DNA of 64,000 nt from Pseudodesulfovibrio tunisiensis (lineage in GTDB: Bacteria; Desulfobacterota; Desulfovibrionia; Desulfovibrionales; Desulfovibrionaceae): contig NZ_CP094380.1 of assembly GCF_022809775.1 (NCBI RefSeq), positions 2,331,501-2,395,500 on the forward strand, in the 5' to 3' direction. A program made the position numbers and the translations under genes. Every line of letters begins with the position of its first letter. The stretch's first letter is position 1. Shown here piece by piece: positions 30,168-33,474 of this stretch. A model generated the notes under the pieces. It was not told the origin of the DNA, ran no database searches, and worked only from the letters and a program-made list of their open reading frames with translations.

Positions 30168-30818
30168 ATGGCTGAAGCTAAGGTTTTCCCGATGAACACG
30201 TTCGTGTCTGTTCTGCGTGGCGAAGCCGCTGACCAGAATCAGCTCGACATGCTGGCATACATCACCCAGGCCGAAACCATCGACACCGACTTCGCCGCCG
30301 TGGCGCAGGCGCTGTCCAAGGCCTGGATTTACGAACAGGAACCCGCTCTGACCAAATACGCCGAAGGCGACATCGCCAAGCTCGGCAATCAGGTCAAGAT
30401 CGACGCCCTGCCCGAAGGTGAGGCCGAACGCGCCAAGACCGTTCTGGAAGTTCTGGCCGCTCTCAAGGCCGAGAACGCGGAACTCAAAGCCGCCAACGCC
30501 AAGCTGACCGAGGAAAAGGAAGCCCTGACCAAGGAACTTGATCCGCTCAAGGCCAAGGTCAAGACCTTTGACGCAGCCAACAAGGCCGGTCAGAAGCAGA
30601 TCACCGTGGCTTCCTCCAAGATCGACGAGATGACCAAAAAGCTCAACGAGCTGTCCGACGAAGTCGAACGCATCAAGAAGGAAGGCGTGGTCGTGGCCGG
30701 TGTTGCCGGTGAAGCTGGCGCTGCTGGCGACGCCCCCGGCGATGCCCCGGACACCGGCGGTGAACCCGAAGCCGATTTCGGTTTCGGCTCCAACCCCTTT
30801 GCCGACTCCAGCTGGTAG
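30168..30818 (+). CDS. qmoD: QmoD-like accessory protein, coiled coil
   Basis: 216 residues. Residues about 5-85 form a compact helical domain. About 95-180 is a long charged coiled coil (repeats of AELKAANAKLTEEKEALTKE type). The tail is Gly/Ala/Pro-rich and ends FGFGSNPFADSSW. It is the promoter-distal gene behind qmoABC, the place of DVU0851 (QmoD) in D. vulgaris, whose precise role is unsettled. AAGGAGGCATACA precedes the ATG. No membrane segment, so it is probably a cytoplasmic partner of Qmo or Apr. Confidence 0.85.
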   Translation: MAEAKVFPMNTFVSVLRGEAADQNQLDMLAYITQAETIDTDFAAVAQALSKAWIYEQEPALTKYAEGDIAKLGNQVKIDALPEGEAERAKTVLEVLAALKAENAELKAANAKLTEEKEALTKELDPLKAKVKTFDAANKAGQKQITVASSKIDEMTKKLNELSDEVERIKKEGVVVAGVAGEAGAAGDAPGDAPDTGGEPEADFGFGSNPFADSSW

Positions 30819-30842: not shown

Positions 30843-30872
30843 AAGGCCCCTGCTCCGGCAGGGGCCTTTTTG
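30843..30872 (+). terminator. Rho-independent terminator of the qmo operon
   Basis: A perfect 10-bp stem AGGCCCCTGC/GCAGGGGCCT, TCCG loop and five Ts, 25 bases after qmoD. Confidence 0.93.
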
Positions 30873-30881
30873 TTTGGGCAG

Positions 30882-32067
30882 CCCCACCTCTTCAGGGCGC
30901 GTCGCCGCGCCGTCTTTTCCGTGCCATCCTGCTTGGGGAGGGTTTCGCCCTTCCCGGGCGAGTTCATTTTTTTGTTGAGGCAAAAAAATAAACGAAAAAA
31001 AAGCCTCTACGCACTGTGCTCCCGACTCCCTCGGGCAGGAACCAGTAGCGCCCTCCCGCCGGACGATTGCGACGTTTCCTGCGGAAACCGCATCGCCCCG
31101 GCTTCGGTCGCTTCAACTGGTTCCAAGCCCTCGCGAGCCGAAATCCGATCTGAGTAAGGAATACTGTTCCAGATGTGATAAGTCGCCTCGGCTCCACCAA
31201 GCTCCCCCAGCCCAACCAACTCTCCACCGTTTCCCTTTGATCAAGGCTTCCGTTCCTGCGGCGAACGCACGAAAGTTCAGCCTTGATCAAGTAGGAAACG
31301 CGCACGGCCGGGGCGGTCCCAAAAGGCGGCTTTTGCCAACTTTTACCCGCCTTGGCGTAAAAGTTGGTCGCCCGAGAAGGGCGAAATCCTTACCTTGCAG
31401 GATGGCGCGCAGTCTACGGCGAATTGCTTCTCCCGGCACGGCCCGCCAAGCTGGCACGGCCCCACCTCTTCAGGGCGCGTAGCCGCGCCGTCTTTTCCGT
31501 GCCATCCTGCAAGGTAAGGATTTCGCCCTTTCCGGGCGAGTTCATTTTTTTGTTGGGGCAAAAAAATAAACGAAAAAAAAGCCCCTTTGCACTGTGCTCC
31601 CGACTCCCTCGGGCAGGAACCAGTAGCGCCCTTTCGCCGGGCGATTGCGACGTTTCCTGCGGAAACCGCATCGCCCCGACTTCGGTCGCTTCGACTGATT
31701 CCAAGCCCTCGCGAGCCGAAATCCGATCTGAGTAAGGAATACTGTTCCAGATGTGATAAGTCGCCTCGACCCAACCAAGCTCCCTCGGCCTAACCACCTT
31801 CCACCGTTTCCCATTGATCAAGGCTTCCGTTCCTGCGGCGAACGCACGAAAGTTCAGCCTTGATCAAGTAGGAAACGCGCACGGCTGTGGCGGTCCCAAA
31901 AGGCGGCTTTTGCCAACTTTTACCCGCCTTGGCGTAAAAGTTGGTCGCCCGAGAAGGGCGAAATCTTCCCTTATCAAGATGGCGCGCAGTCTACGGCGAA
32001 TTGTTTCGCCCGGCACGGCTGGCCAAGCTGGCACAGCCCCACCTCTTCAGGGCGCGTAGCCGCGCCG
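30882..32067. repeat. Tandem 578-bp repeat (two full units and the start of a third), non-coding
   Basis: Unit 1 spans 30882-31459, unit 2 spans 31460-32036, and 32037-32067 repeats the first 31 bases before the match ends. By eye the units agree at well over nine in ten positions. Each unit contains a [GA]GGGC/GCCC[TC]-type hairpin around an A-rich loop, a TTGATCAAGGCT...AGCCTTGATCAA pair and CCAACTTTTAC/GTAAAAGTTGG (31336-31367 in unit 1). A 28-bp inverted repeat crosses the unit junction. Several short frames run through it but none has a ribosome site or known motif. Confidence 0.9.
31379..31528. repeat. Perfect 28-bp inverted repeat across the tandem-unit junction
   Basis: The arm at 31379-31406 and the arm at 31501-31528 are exact reverse complements, 94 bases apart. 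The corresponding arms at 30923-30950 and 31956-31983, which have no nearby partner, have drifted to related but different sequences. Confidence 0.9.
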
Positions 32068-32093: not shown

Positions 32094-32124
32094 ACAAAAA
32101 AAGCGGCCCCGCAAGGGACCGCTT
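32094..32124 (-). terminator. Rho-independent terminator of the nucleotidyltransferase-like gene
   Basis: A 10-bp stem with one wobble (AAGCGGCCCC / GGGACCGCTT), GCAA loop and a run of Ts in the minus direction, 27 bases after the stop at 32152. Confidence 0.85.
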
Positions 32125-32151
32125 CCGAATCTTCAACTATTGAGGCGAAGC

Positions 32152-33474
32152 CTAGAAGTGCTTTGCCACCTGCTTGACATACGCGATGGCCTGGTCCTCG
32201 TTGGACACGTCATCACTGATCTGTGCTCGCAGCAGGGATTCTCGGATCGCGCCGACCGAAGGGCCGGGCTTGAGGCCGGTGTACTGCATGATCTGATTGC
32301 CGTCGAGGAAGGGCTCGATGTCCTCCTGCGGGATATCGGCACGCTCGGCCATCTTGAGATTGTGGTTGTATTCGCGCCACGAACCGTCGCGAGCCTTGAT
32401 GTCCGCACGCACCATTTCCATGATGCGCGGATATTCATCGTGACTCTTGAGACGACGAATGCCCTTGTCGGTGAGCATGAAATGGGGCCGCATGTGGTTG
32501 CGGACCAGATCGCACACCAGATCGATATCCTCGGCGGAAAAGCTCAGGCGGCGCAGAATCTTGCGCGAGACCTTGGCGCCGACACGGTGATGCTGAAGGA
32601 AATGCCATTCCTCACCGTAGTATTCCGCAGTGTACAGCTTGCCCACGTCATGGAACAGACACGCCACCGTGCCCTTCCAGTCGTACGGCAACTCCTCGGG
32701 ATAGCGTTTCATCACGTCGAAGGTGTGGGCGAGCACGGTTTCCTCGCCTGCTTCGGGATTCCTGATCTGCTTGATGCGGGACAGGGCCGCGATTTCCGGG
32801 ATCAGGCCGTGCAGCAGCATGGAGTCGAAGAGCAGCTGGAAGAACTTCCACATGGATTCGGCTTCGACCTTGCGCCACTCGTCCAGAAAATCCGGCATGG
32901 GCACATAATCCAGAACGCGACGGGCGTTGCGCACAATGGCGATCCAGGTATTGGCCTCGATCTGCTTGTCGTAATTGGCAGCGAACCGCAGGGCGCGGTA
33001 GGCAAGGGAATAGTCCTTGCGCAGGGCCTGATCCGGAATGCCCTTGAACTGGATCATGCCGTCCTCGAATCCCGCAAAGTCCGCATAGGCGTCCTTGGCC
33101 TTGGGGATGTAGGGGCAGACGGCGGACAGGGGAATGTCCCCGCGCCGTTCCAGCCGCTTGAGCATTCTGGGGGTCATGATGGAAACGGCCTCTTCGGTAT
33201 ACGAGGCGTCGTCCACGTCGGCGGGGTAGAAGAAGTAGGTGACCCCGCCTTCCTTGAGGGTTCCCAGCAGGGACTTGTCCGCGGAAGGTTCCAGATTGGG
33301 AAAGTATTTCTGAAGCTCGGACAGCCCCGCTTCGGTGCAGATGTCCAGCTCCTGCTCATTACCGGATTCGTCCAGGGTCAGTTCCTGGAGCCGGGCATTC
33401 ACCACGTAGGCATCGTACCCGTTGCGCATGATGGTTTTGCAGAAACCAACGGCATCCTTGAAAGGCTGACTCAT
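32152..33474 (-). CDS. HD-domain protein of the tRNA nucleotidyltransferase / poly(A) polymerase family
   Basis: 440 residues. An N-terminal nucleotidyltransferase-like domain (about 1-150) is followed by an RNA-binding helical part and an HD phosphohydrolase domain (HTFDVMKR ... CLFHDVGKLYTAEYYG, near 250-285). In the usual CCA-adding enzyme the N-terminus shows GGxVRD and DxD. Here the matching stretch reads YVVNARLQEL and ELDICT, so the glycines, the Arg-Asp pair and one carboxylate are changed. The HD motif is intact. The ATG at 33474 follows GGGAGATGAC. It may be a degenerate CCA enzyme or act on another nucleotide. Confidence 0.8.
   Translation of the reverse strand: MSQPFKDAVGFCKTIMRNGYDAYVVNARLQELTLDESGNEQELDICTEAGLSELQKYFPNLEPSADKSLLGTLKEGGVTYFFYPADVDDASYTEEAVSIMTPRMLKRLERRGDIPLSAVCPYIPKAKDAYADFAGFEDGMIQFKGIPDQALRKDYSLAYRALRFAANYDKQIEANTWIAIVRNARRVLDYVPMPDFLDEWRKVEAESMWKFFQLLFDSMLLHGLIPEIAALSRIKQIRNPEAGEETVLAHTFDVMKRYPEELPYDWKGTVACLFHDVGKLYTAEYYGEEWHFLQHHRVGAKVSRKILRRLSFSAEDIDLVCDLVRNHMRPHFMLTDKGIRRLKSHDEYPRIMEMVRADIKARDGSWREYNHNLKMAERADIPQEDIEPFLDGNQIMQYTGLKPGPSVGAIRESLLRAQISDDVSNEDQAIAYVKQVAKHF

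Follow-up and report, generated by a model that had tools for sequence, protein, structure and literature searches.

The array between qmoD and the HD-domain gene

The window analysed here is a stretch of 64,000 nucleotides from the chromosome of Pseudodesulfovibrio tunisiensis. In it, qmoD lies on the plus strand and ends at 30818, and a minus-strand HD-domain gene (32152-33474) faces it from the right, converging on the array described here; this gene matches PF01966 above the cut-off, and a match to a tRNA-nucleotidyltransferase domain lies slightly under the cut-off. An earlier note, made from the letters of this stretch, had described two units of about 578 bp and the start of a third between the two genes, and this is confirmed: the units measure 578 and 577 nt and are followed by another 31 nt. 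Unit 1 shares 93% identity with unit 2, and two aligned blocks of the pair give 90% and 92%. The features are as follows; R1 is the covariance model of module A described further below, and helix numbers are those of the covariation test.

30843..30868, plus strand: terminator-like hairpin 3' of qmoD, upstream of the array
30882..31459, plus strand: unit 1
30882..30911, plus strand: box of unit 1, palindrome GGCGCG-NNNN-CGCGCC (box pattern)
30940..31132, plus strand: module A of unit 1 (hairpin, pseudoknot, long rod); R1 199 bits, a copy in the training set of the model
30943..30961, plus strand: hairpin P1 of module A, unit 1, from the sequence; helix 1
30962..30993, plus strand: pseudoknot stem S1, 30962-30974 with 30981-30993, 12 of 13 pairs (92% complementary); helix 2
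30977-30981 with 31003-31007, plus strand: pseudoknot stem S2 of unit 1, over an A-rich linker; helix 3
31038..31124, plus strand: rod of module A, closed by 31038-31046 with 31116-31124; helix 4
31315..31389, minus strand: inward-facing module in B position, unit 1 (hairpin and pseudoknot head); R1 40.7 bits
31336-31346 with 31357-31367, and 31323-31329 with 31347-31353: S1 and S2 of the B-position head, unit 1
31379-31405: 27-nt exact reverse complement of 31502-31528, across the unit junction
31460..32036, plus strand: unit 2
31460..31489, plus strand: box at the junction of the units (box pattern)
31518..31710, plus strand: module A of unit 2; R1 200.8 bits, also a training copy
31555-31559 with 31581-31585, plus strand: stem S2 of unit 2
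31892..31966, minus strand: inward-facing module in B position, unit 2; R1 40.6 bits
32037..32067, plus strand: terminal box, the first 31 nt of a third unit (box pattern)
32099..32126, minus strand: terminator-like hairpin of the converging HD-domain gene

The window stretch holds 8 terminator-like sites where 2.8 are expected, 5 of them within the units, and a scan for promoter-like sites of the sigma-70 type found none there (0.2 expected). That no protein explains the units, as the earlier note held, is borne out: a codon-model gene caller calls a single gene within 53 clusters of the element, an insertion sequence in another array, and none in the window units. A cruder first caller placed ORFs inside or overlapping 12 of the 15 arrays of the own genome, the majority with low scores and on the minus strand. 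Of 33 deletions seen among 33 units, 22 have a length that is not divisible by three. The window has no Rfam match at the gathering score, and a relaxed E-value gives sub-threshold matches only; those to miRNA families and Mcr7 were rejected, being far under their cut-offs and located on the long inverted arms. Searches of plasmid and phage collections with the window element gave no match. We also rejected a CRISPR array, since the stretches between boxes are homologous to each other and are not unique spacers. No description of this repeat family was found in the literature searched, which is not proof that there is none in print.

The earlier note had drawn a hairpin stem reading GAGGC with GCCTC in unit 1 and GGGGC with GCCCC in unit 2. 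All four strings stand exactly at the coordinates it gave, and the paired change of A to G with T to C between the units is real; the stem is not a simple hairpin, however, for its 5' strand sits in the loop of a longer stem (30962-30974 with 30981-30993), which makes it helix S2 of a pseudoknot. The S1 loop pairs with a stretch past the A-rich linker, an H-type pseudoknot, and in unit 1 nucleotide 30981 is common to S1 and S2. The inverted arms of the unit are 54 nt long and 72-85% complementary in the window, and it is by its head that the minus-strand module is matched by R1. The 27-nt inverted copy is found in the window array only, being absent from the other 3' arms compared; it is likely a template-switch scar, and it suggests that template copying is able to create pairing even where selection plays no part. 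For this reason the change between two units is, by itself, weak evidence for the functional fold that the earlier note argued from it; that the fold is kept does hold, on covariation between species.

Copies, relatives and the kept fold

The own genome consists of 3,609,901 bases in one contig, in which a DNA search with the element finds 15 arrays, far more than chance would give, and one 52-nt fragment. The window units are not a local duplication: full units in arrays with different flanks are 82-94% identical to window unit 1. We aligned 33 near-full units from the 15 arrays, one to four per array, leaving shorter pieces aside. The usual layout is box-unit-box; arrays L047, L056 and L059 start within a unit, and there is no terminal box at the end of L046, L047, L054, L056 and L059. 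All 43 matches to the box pattern (at most 3 mismatches) fall by position inside the 15 arrays or on their borders, and with no solo "empty" box among them, insertion into a pre-existing box is unsupported. Together the arrays sum to 22,249 bases, or 0.6% of the genome, one insertion sequence included. Both modules are present and face each other, A towards B, in 15 of 15 arrays.

Stem S2 could be located by regular expression in 35 copies: 20 read GGGGC with GCCCC or a 4-nt form, 13 read GAGGC with GCCTC, one has a G.U and one an A.C. Watson-Crick pairing, which the earlier note had wished to see checked in further copies, is thus kept in 33 of 35 (one shortened), and the two linked alleles indicate that copies exchange blocks. 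In the B-position heads (34 copies, 14 distinct), 98.1% of the S1 cells are paired, and both partners have changed in 6 of its 11 pairs. Of 500 shuffles, none reaches the covariation score or the cell counts, but 27 match or exceed the count of pairs with two-sided changes and 211 that of pair types. One B-head copy, in L054, is a mismatched recombinant.

Some neighbouring sequences may be recorded here. An insert of about 709 bp lies within a repeat unit at L056:3680-4388 (about 2504480-2505188 of the own genome); L060 holds a 100% identical copy, where the gene is an IS1595-type transposase. The lone 52-nt fragment, from the 3' end of a unit, is at L060:3026-3077, near this type of transposase gene and a sequence that is tRNA-like by eye. 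Immediately upstream of two of the 15 arrays, L057 and L059, are repeats that by eye resemble CRISPR repeats, presumably of type I-E.

A search of relatives finds the unit as a family across Pseudodesulfovibrio, the genus being recognised from named qmoC relatives, so that the earlier note was right to call the unit tandem and understated it, the units belonging to a dispersed family of the whole genus. Of 59 relatives, 12 show short DNA matches (counting the own genome, 13 of 60), and the elements of relatives have the same layout with another unit length, G005 having units of 671 bp, G034 of about 390 bp and G010 of 375 bp. R1 was built from 13 sequences, six from the own genome and seven from four others; it matches 34 of 36 Pseudodesulfovibrio genomes, the own included, and 29 of the 31 that had no part in its training. 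For high-copy genomes the counts are lower bounds, since no more than 71 candidates were scored in each. Among the 36, R1 finds no match in G030 and G012. A phylum sample of 247 genomes, searched under stricter filters at the cost of weak matches, gave 3 with a match, one being the own genome and two weak. No orthologous empty site at qmoD came to light: R1 gave no match in 16 qmoC loci searched together with the window, and in 12 relatives, a few of them with a contig end shortly past qmoD, the HD-domain gene was not found next to it. An opposing B match is present in 35 of 38 clusters of four other genomes among the matches listed, where L249, L255 and L257 have none. In L222, L248, L252 and others, the types of pseudoknot head seem by eye to have been exchanged between A and B rods, S2 showing compensated changes.

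Covariation analysis, which the earlier note had proposed as a check, upholds the pairing. We aligned with MAFFT one R1 match from each of 17 genomes (of the 34 with matches); the structure combines the first hairpin, S1 and the rod as found by RNAalifold with S2 and an inner helix that were added by hand. Of the 40 pairs, 26 show kept two-sided changes, these being present in five helices, and 91.3% of cells are paired, in a set where choosing rows by a structure model favours structured rows somewhat and the G003 row is poorly aligned in the rod. The covariation score is 0.351 against 0.124 in shuffles, of which none of 500 reaches 0.351, and slid versions of the structure score at most 0.150; the number of pair types is reached by 7 of 500 shuffles. 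Within genomes, paired sites vary less than unpaired sites in each of three comparisons (0.0186 vs 0.0791, 0.0070 vs 0.0499 and 0.0192 vs 0.0522). That the fold is kept while its letters change between species is strongly supported by the covariation between species. Type B rods also fold, and 9 sequences of them show two-sided changes at 9 of 27 pairs; their covariation term is slightly unfavourable, and B is therefore less secure.

Mismatch types might bear on whether the kept form is RNA or DNA. Between species there are 14 G.U and 10 A.C among 679 cells, or 5 and 10 when one pair is left out, and a model-fitted alignment gives 28 distinct G.U events against 13 A.C. Within genomes we count 45 G.U and 15 A.C cells, which are 17 and 13 distinct types. 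A tRNA control of 13 genes (6 G.U and 2 A.C of 221) is too small.

Gene context and chromosomal position

Gene context was assessed with a home-made codon-model caller for 53 clusters, against a background of 65 gene pairs from the window and two control stretches. Convergent genes flank 25 of the clusters, co-directional genes another 25 (11 and 14) and divergent genes 3; the background has 7 convergent pairs, the window array's own pair counted among them, and 8 divergent ones, and 20 samples of the own genome have 25 of each among 206 pairs. At least one gene ends towards the cluster in 50 of 53. Clusters favour gene 3' ends and convergent pairs, and the convergent preference can come in part from where free gaps are located. 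All 53 lie between called genes, with one array end (L050) overlapping a called gene by 24 nt. In the own genome, a crude scan shows that 9 of 13 and 8 of 12 genes facing an array are separated from it by terminator-like hairpins, those of L057 and L059 on the A side and L053 on the B side being doubtful.

In ten genomes, 135 of 145 clusters among the matches listed lie in the half of the chromosome around the origin, the deciles counted from dnaA holding 16, 35, 45, 27, 12, 6, 3, 1, 0 and 0 clusters. The origin was set at the best DnaA match of each genome, with several genome lengths rounded; the count used the best 33 of 62 matches in G034, 13 of 34 in G024, 17 of 40 in G010 and 35 of 71 in G000, and left out matches below 60 bits (14 in G025, G028, G004 and G002, which fall in the same ranges as those kept). 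The DnaA C-terminal domain family has two matches in each of 12 genus genomes searched. In the own genome, 11 of 15 clusters are in the origin half, and, for this genome only, the GC skew changes sign between the samples at 2.52 and 2.70 Mb, with dnaA at 2.57 Mb. Ten samples of its origin half contain 19 convergent pairs, and ten of its terminus half contain 6, so the supply of gaps explains part of the origin bias, perhaps all of it in the own genome. Fork-coupled single-strand transposition is expected to leave a fork bias; module A has no preference relative to fork direction (68 vs 77 of the 145 clusters among the matches listed), and we rejected this mode.

The gap beyond leuS allows copies at one site to be compared. 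Thirty leuS loci from the 36 genomes were examined over 1.5 kb of flank, some contigs ending sooner, and 10 of them carry an R1 match scoring at least 60 bits no farther than about 0.7 kb past leuS, whichever way it points; L285 has a match 1.3 kb from leuS, and some other loci have weak matches only. The module facing leuS is B in the own genome and G005, and A in G006, G028, G032, G009 and G033; in G024, G034 and G035, the sequence past the leuS terminator reads by eye like a further gene before the element. In the own genome, the leuS-site copy shares an identity of 0.95-0.96 with four copies at other places; with the leuS-site copies of nine other genomes it shares 0.58-0.64. Comparing leuS-site copies with others of the same genome gives 0.89-0.96 in G024, G034, G028 and G035 and 0.76-0.83 in G006; G005 is left out, its 1.00 being the leuS copy set against itself. 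These identities indicate that the gap was invaded repeatedly or that copies are homogenised within lineages. Among G024, G034 and G035 the leuS-site copies are 0.91-0.98 alike, no less than within a genome, so a concerted drift is visible only over longer distances.

Nature of the element and comparison with known repeats

The units are a dispersed, tandem-prone, non-coding element family of Pseudodesulfovibrio in which A modules face modules in B position. We give a probability of about one half to the reading that this is a giant, BIME-like, non-autonomous repeat whose fold is kept, and not a member of the REP family. Such a family would spread and homogenise by recombination, and probably also by machinery that reads its folded ends; it would settle between genes, mostly at 3' ends, and be tolerated or favoured in the origin-proximal half. 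In the most likely mode, the folded modules, as DNA hairpins or as RNA, would be binding sites of one conserved protein, either transposase-like or of the nucleoid, and through such protein-bound modules selection or copying would keep shape rather than sequence. No mobility protein was found in a genome-wide search that covered the Y1 family. With no match to PF01797 in the own genome, a Y1 transposase was rejected as the present carrier there; 17 of the 36 genus genomes have a match. By eye we saw no target-site duplication at the array ends, apart from the box.

Modules A and B might instead be a pair of convergent genes for folded non-coding RNAs of about 200 nt that act in trans or on the chromosome in the manner reported for naRNA4 of E. 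coli, a possible if rather unlikely reading. An H-type pseudoknot, an A-rich linker and a long rod with two-sided changes in five helices suit it, as do paired sites that vary 2.7 to 7 times less than unpaired ones within genomes. The excess of G.U over A.C cells within genomes also points this way, though it shrinks to 17 against 13 distinct types, and across species G.U is not above A.C once one pair is set aside; moreover, the window stretch has no promoter-like site of the sigma-70 type, terminator-like hairpins stand between the array and many facing genes, and two of the 36 genus genomes have no match. These two genomes likewise speak against an element of origin-domain organisation, whose folded repeats would bind a nucleoid protein or topoisomerase and in this way mark or insulate the half near the origin. 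We think it unlikely, despite the 135 of 145 clusters around dnaA and the location of the own dnaA at the GC-skew switch, because the clusters are not independent between species and the enrichment of convergent pairs near the origin could account for the own genome. Quite doubtful, in our view, is a genus-wide origin-domain system in which dozens of convergent A/B modules, as RNA or extruded DNA, organise or insulate the origin half, their shape kept and their letters drifting together in each lineage.

The arms could also be kept complementary by quasi-palindrome correction and gene conversion, as unselected mutational palindromes. The 27-nt inverted copy of the window array, the linked S2 alleles exchanged as blocks, and double changes that nearly all lead from one Watson-Crick pair to another agree with this; but the two crossing helices of the pseudoknot are both kept over 17 genomes, and paired sites change less than unpaired ones, a difference not expected from template copying alone, which leaves it improbable. 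We see a slim chance for a backup bidirectional terminator, in which P1 and the T-run of S1 would stop transcripts from the neighbouring genes: the excess of terminator-like sites in the window stretch and the genes ending towards 50 of 53 clusters agree with it, whereas many facing genes already own a terminator-like hairpin, and a terminator needs neither pseudoknot nor rod. Near-identical tandem units are a known assembly risk, but an assembly artefact or a recent local duplication has a negligible probability given 15 arrays with different flanks and diverged full units in a single-contig genome, and tandem arrays of other unit lengths in other genomes.

If the preferred reading of a giant BIME-like repeat is true, there is a class of repeats whose conserved unit is a pseudoknot and not a short palindrome, and a single genus offers many natural variants of it. 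These would allow a direct test of what maintains the folds of bacterial repeats, be it selection, a protein that recognises them or template copying, and also of what makes these repeats scarce in the terminus half.

Several known systems share traits with the element. MITEs are non-coding, dispersed sequences of a few hundred bp with imperfect inverted ends. The present element is likewise non-coding, dispersed and a few hundred bp in size and has imperfect terminal inverted repeats (its 54-nt arms), and it differs in its tandem units with a shared box of about 30 nt. No target-site duplication was seen by eye, and no cognate transposase was found, an IS1595-type insertion being the only one in 53 clusters and Y1 the family searched genome-wide. 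The large ornate RNAs GOLLD, ROOL and OLE, as portrayed in an excerpt of PMC12286853, are similar as elaborate folded non-coding sequences; here, however, we have a dispersed repeat, and the window has no Rfam match at the gathering score.

The betaproteobacterial repeat element BRE, as described in PMC3110155, is also intergenic, with a variable tandem copy number per locus and no co-orientation with the fork; it differs in being about 90 bp long and scattered round the chromosome, a distinction drawn from its description. In E. coli, naRNA4 from REP325 is a repeat-encoded RNA proposed for chromosome condensation, according to an excerpt of PMC6907758, and might by analogy model the action of the present elements, which are not known to have a transcript or an HU link. 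The REP/BIME system with its RAYT, so far as an extract of PMC2817692 describes it, is alike in being extragenic and of many copies, with inverted palindromic pairs, tandem arrays, species-specific letters and preserved complementarity. REP palindromes measure 20-40 bp (PMC3733652, in extract), whereas the modules here are 65-190 nt long and contain an H-type pseudoknot, and no Y1 transposase (RAYT) is present in the own genome. Inverted alternating units in clusters (15 of 15 own arrays, 35 of 38 others) and an extragenic location were found; a 20-40 bp palindrome and a cognate RAYT were not. Because two of these four membership tests fail, we do not file the element as REP/BIME, yet in layout and setting it is BIME-like.
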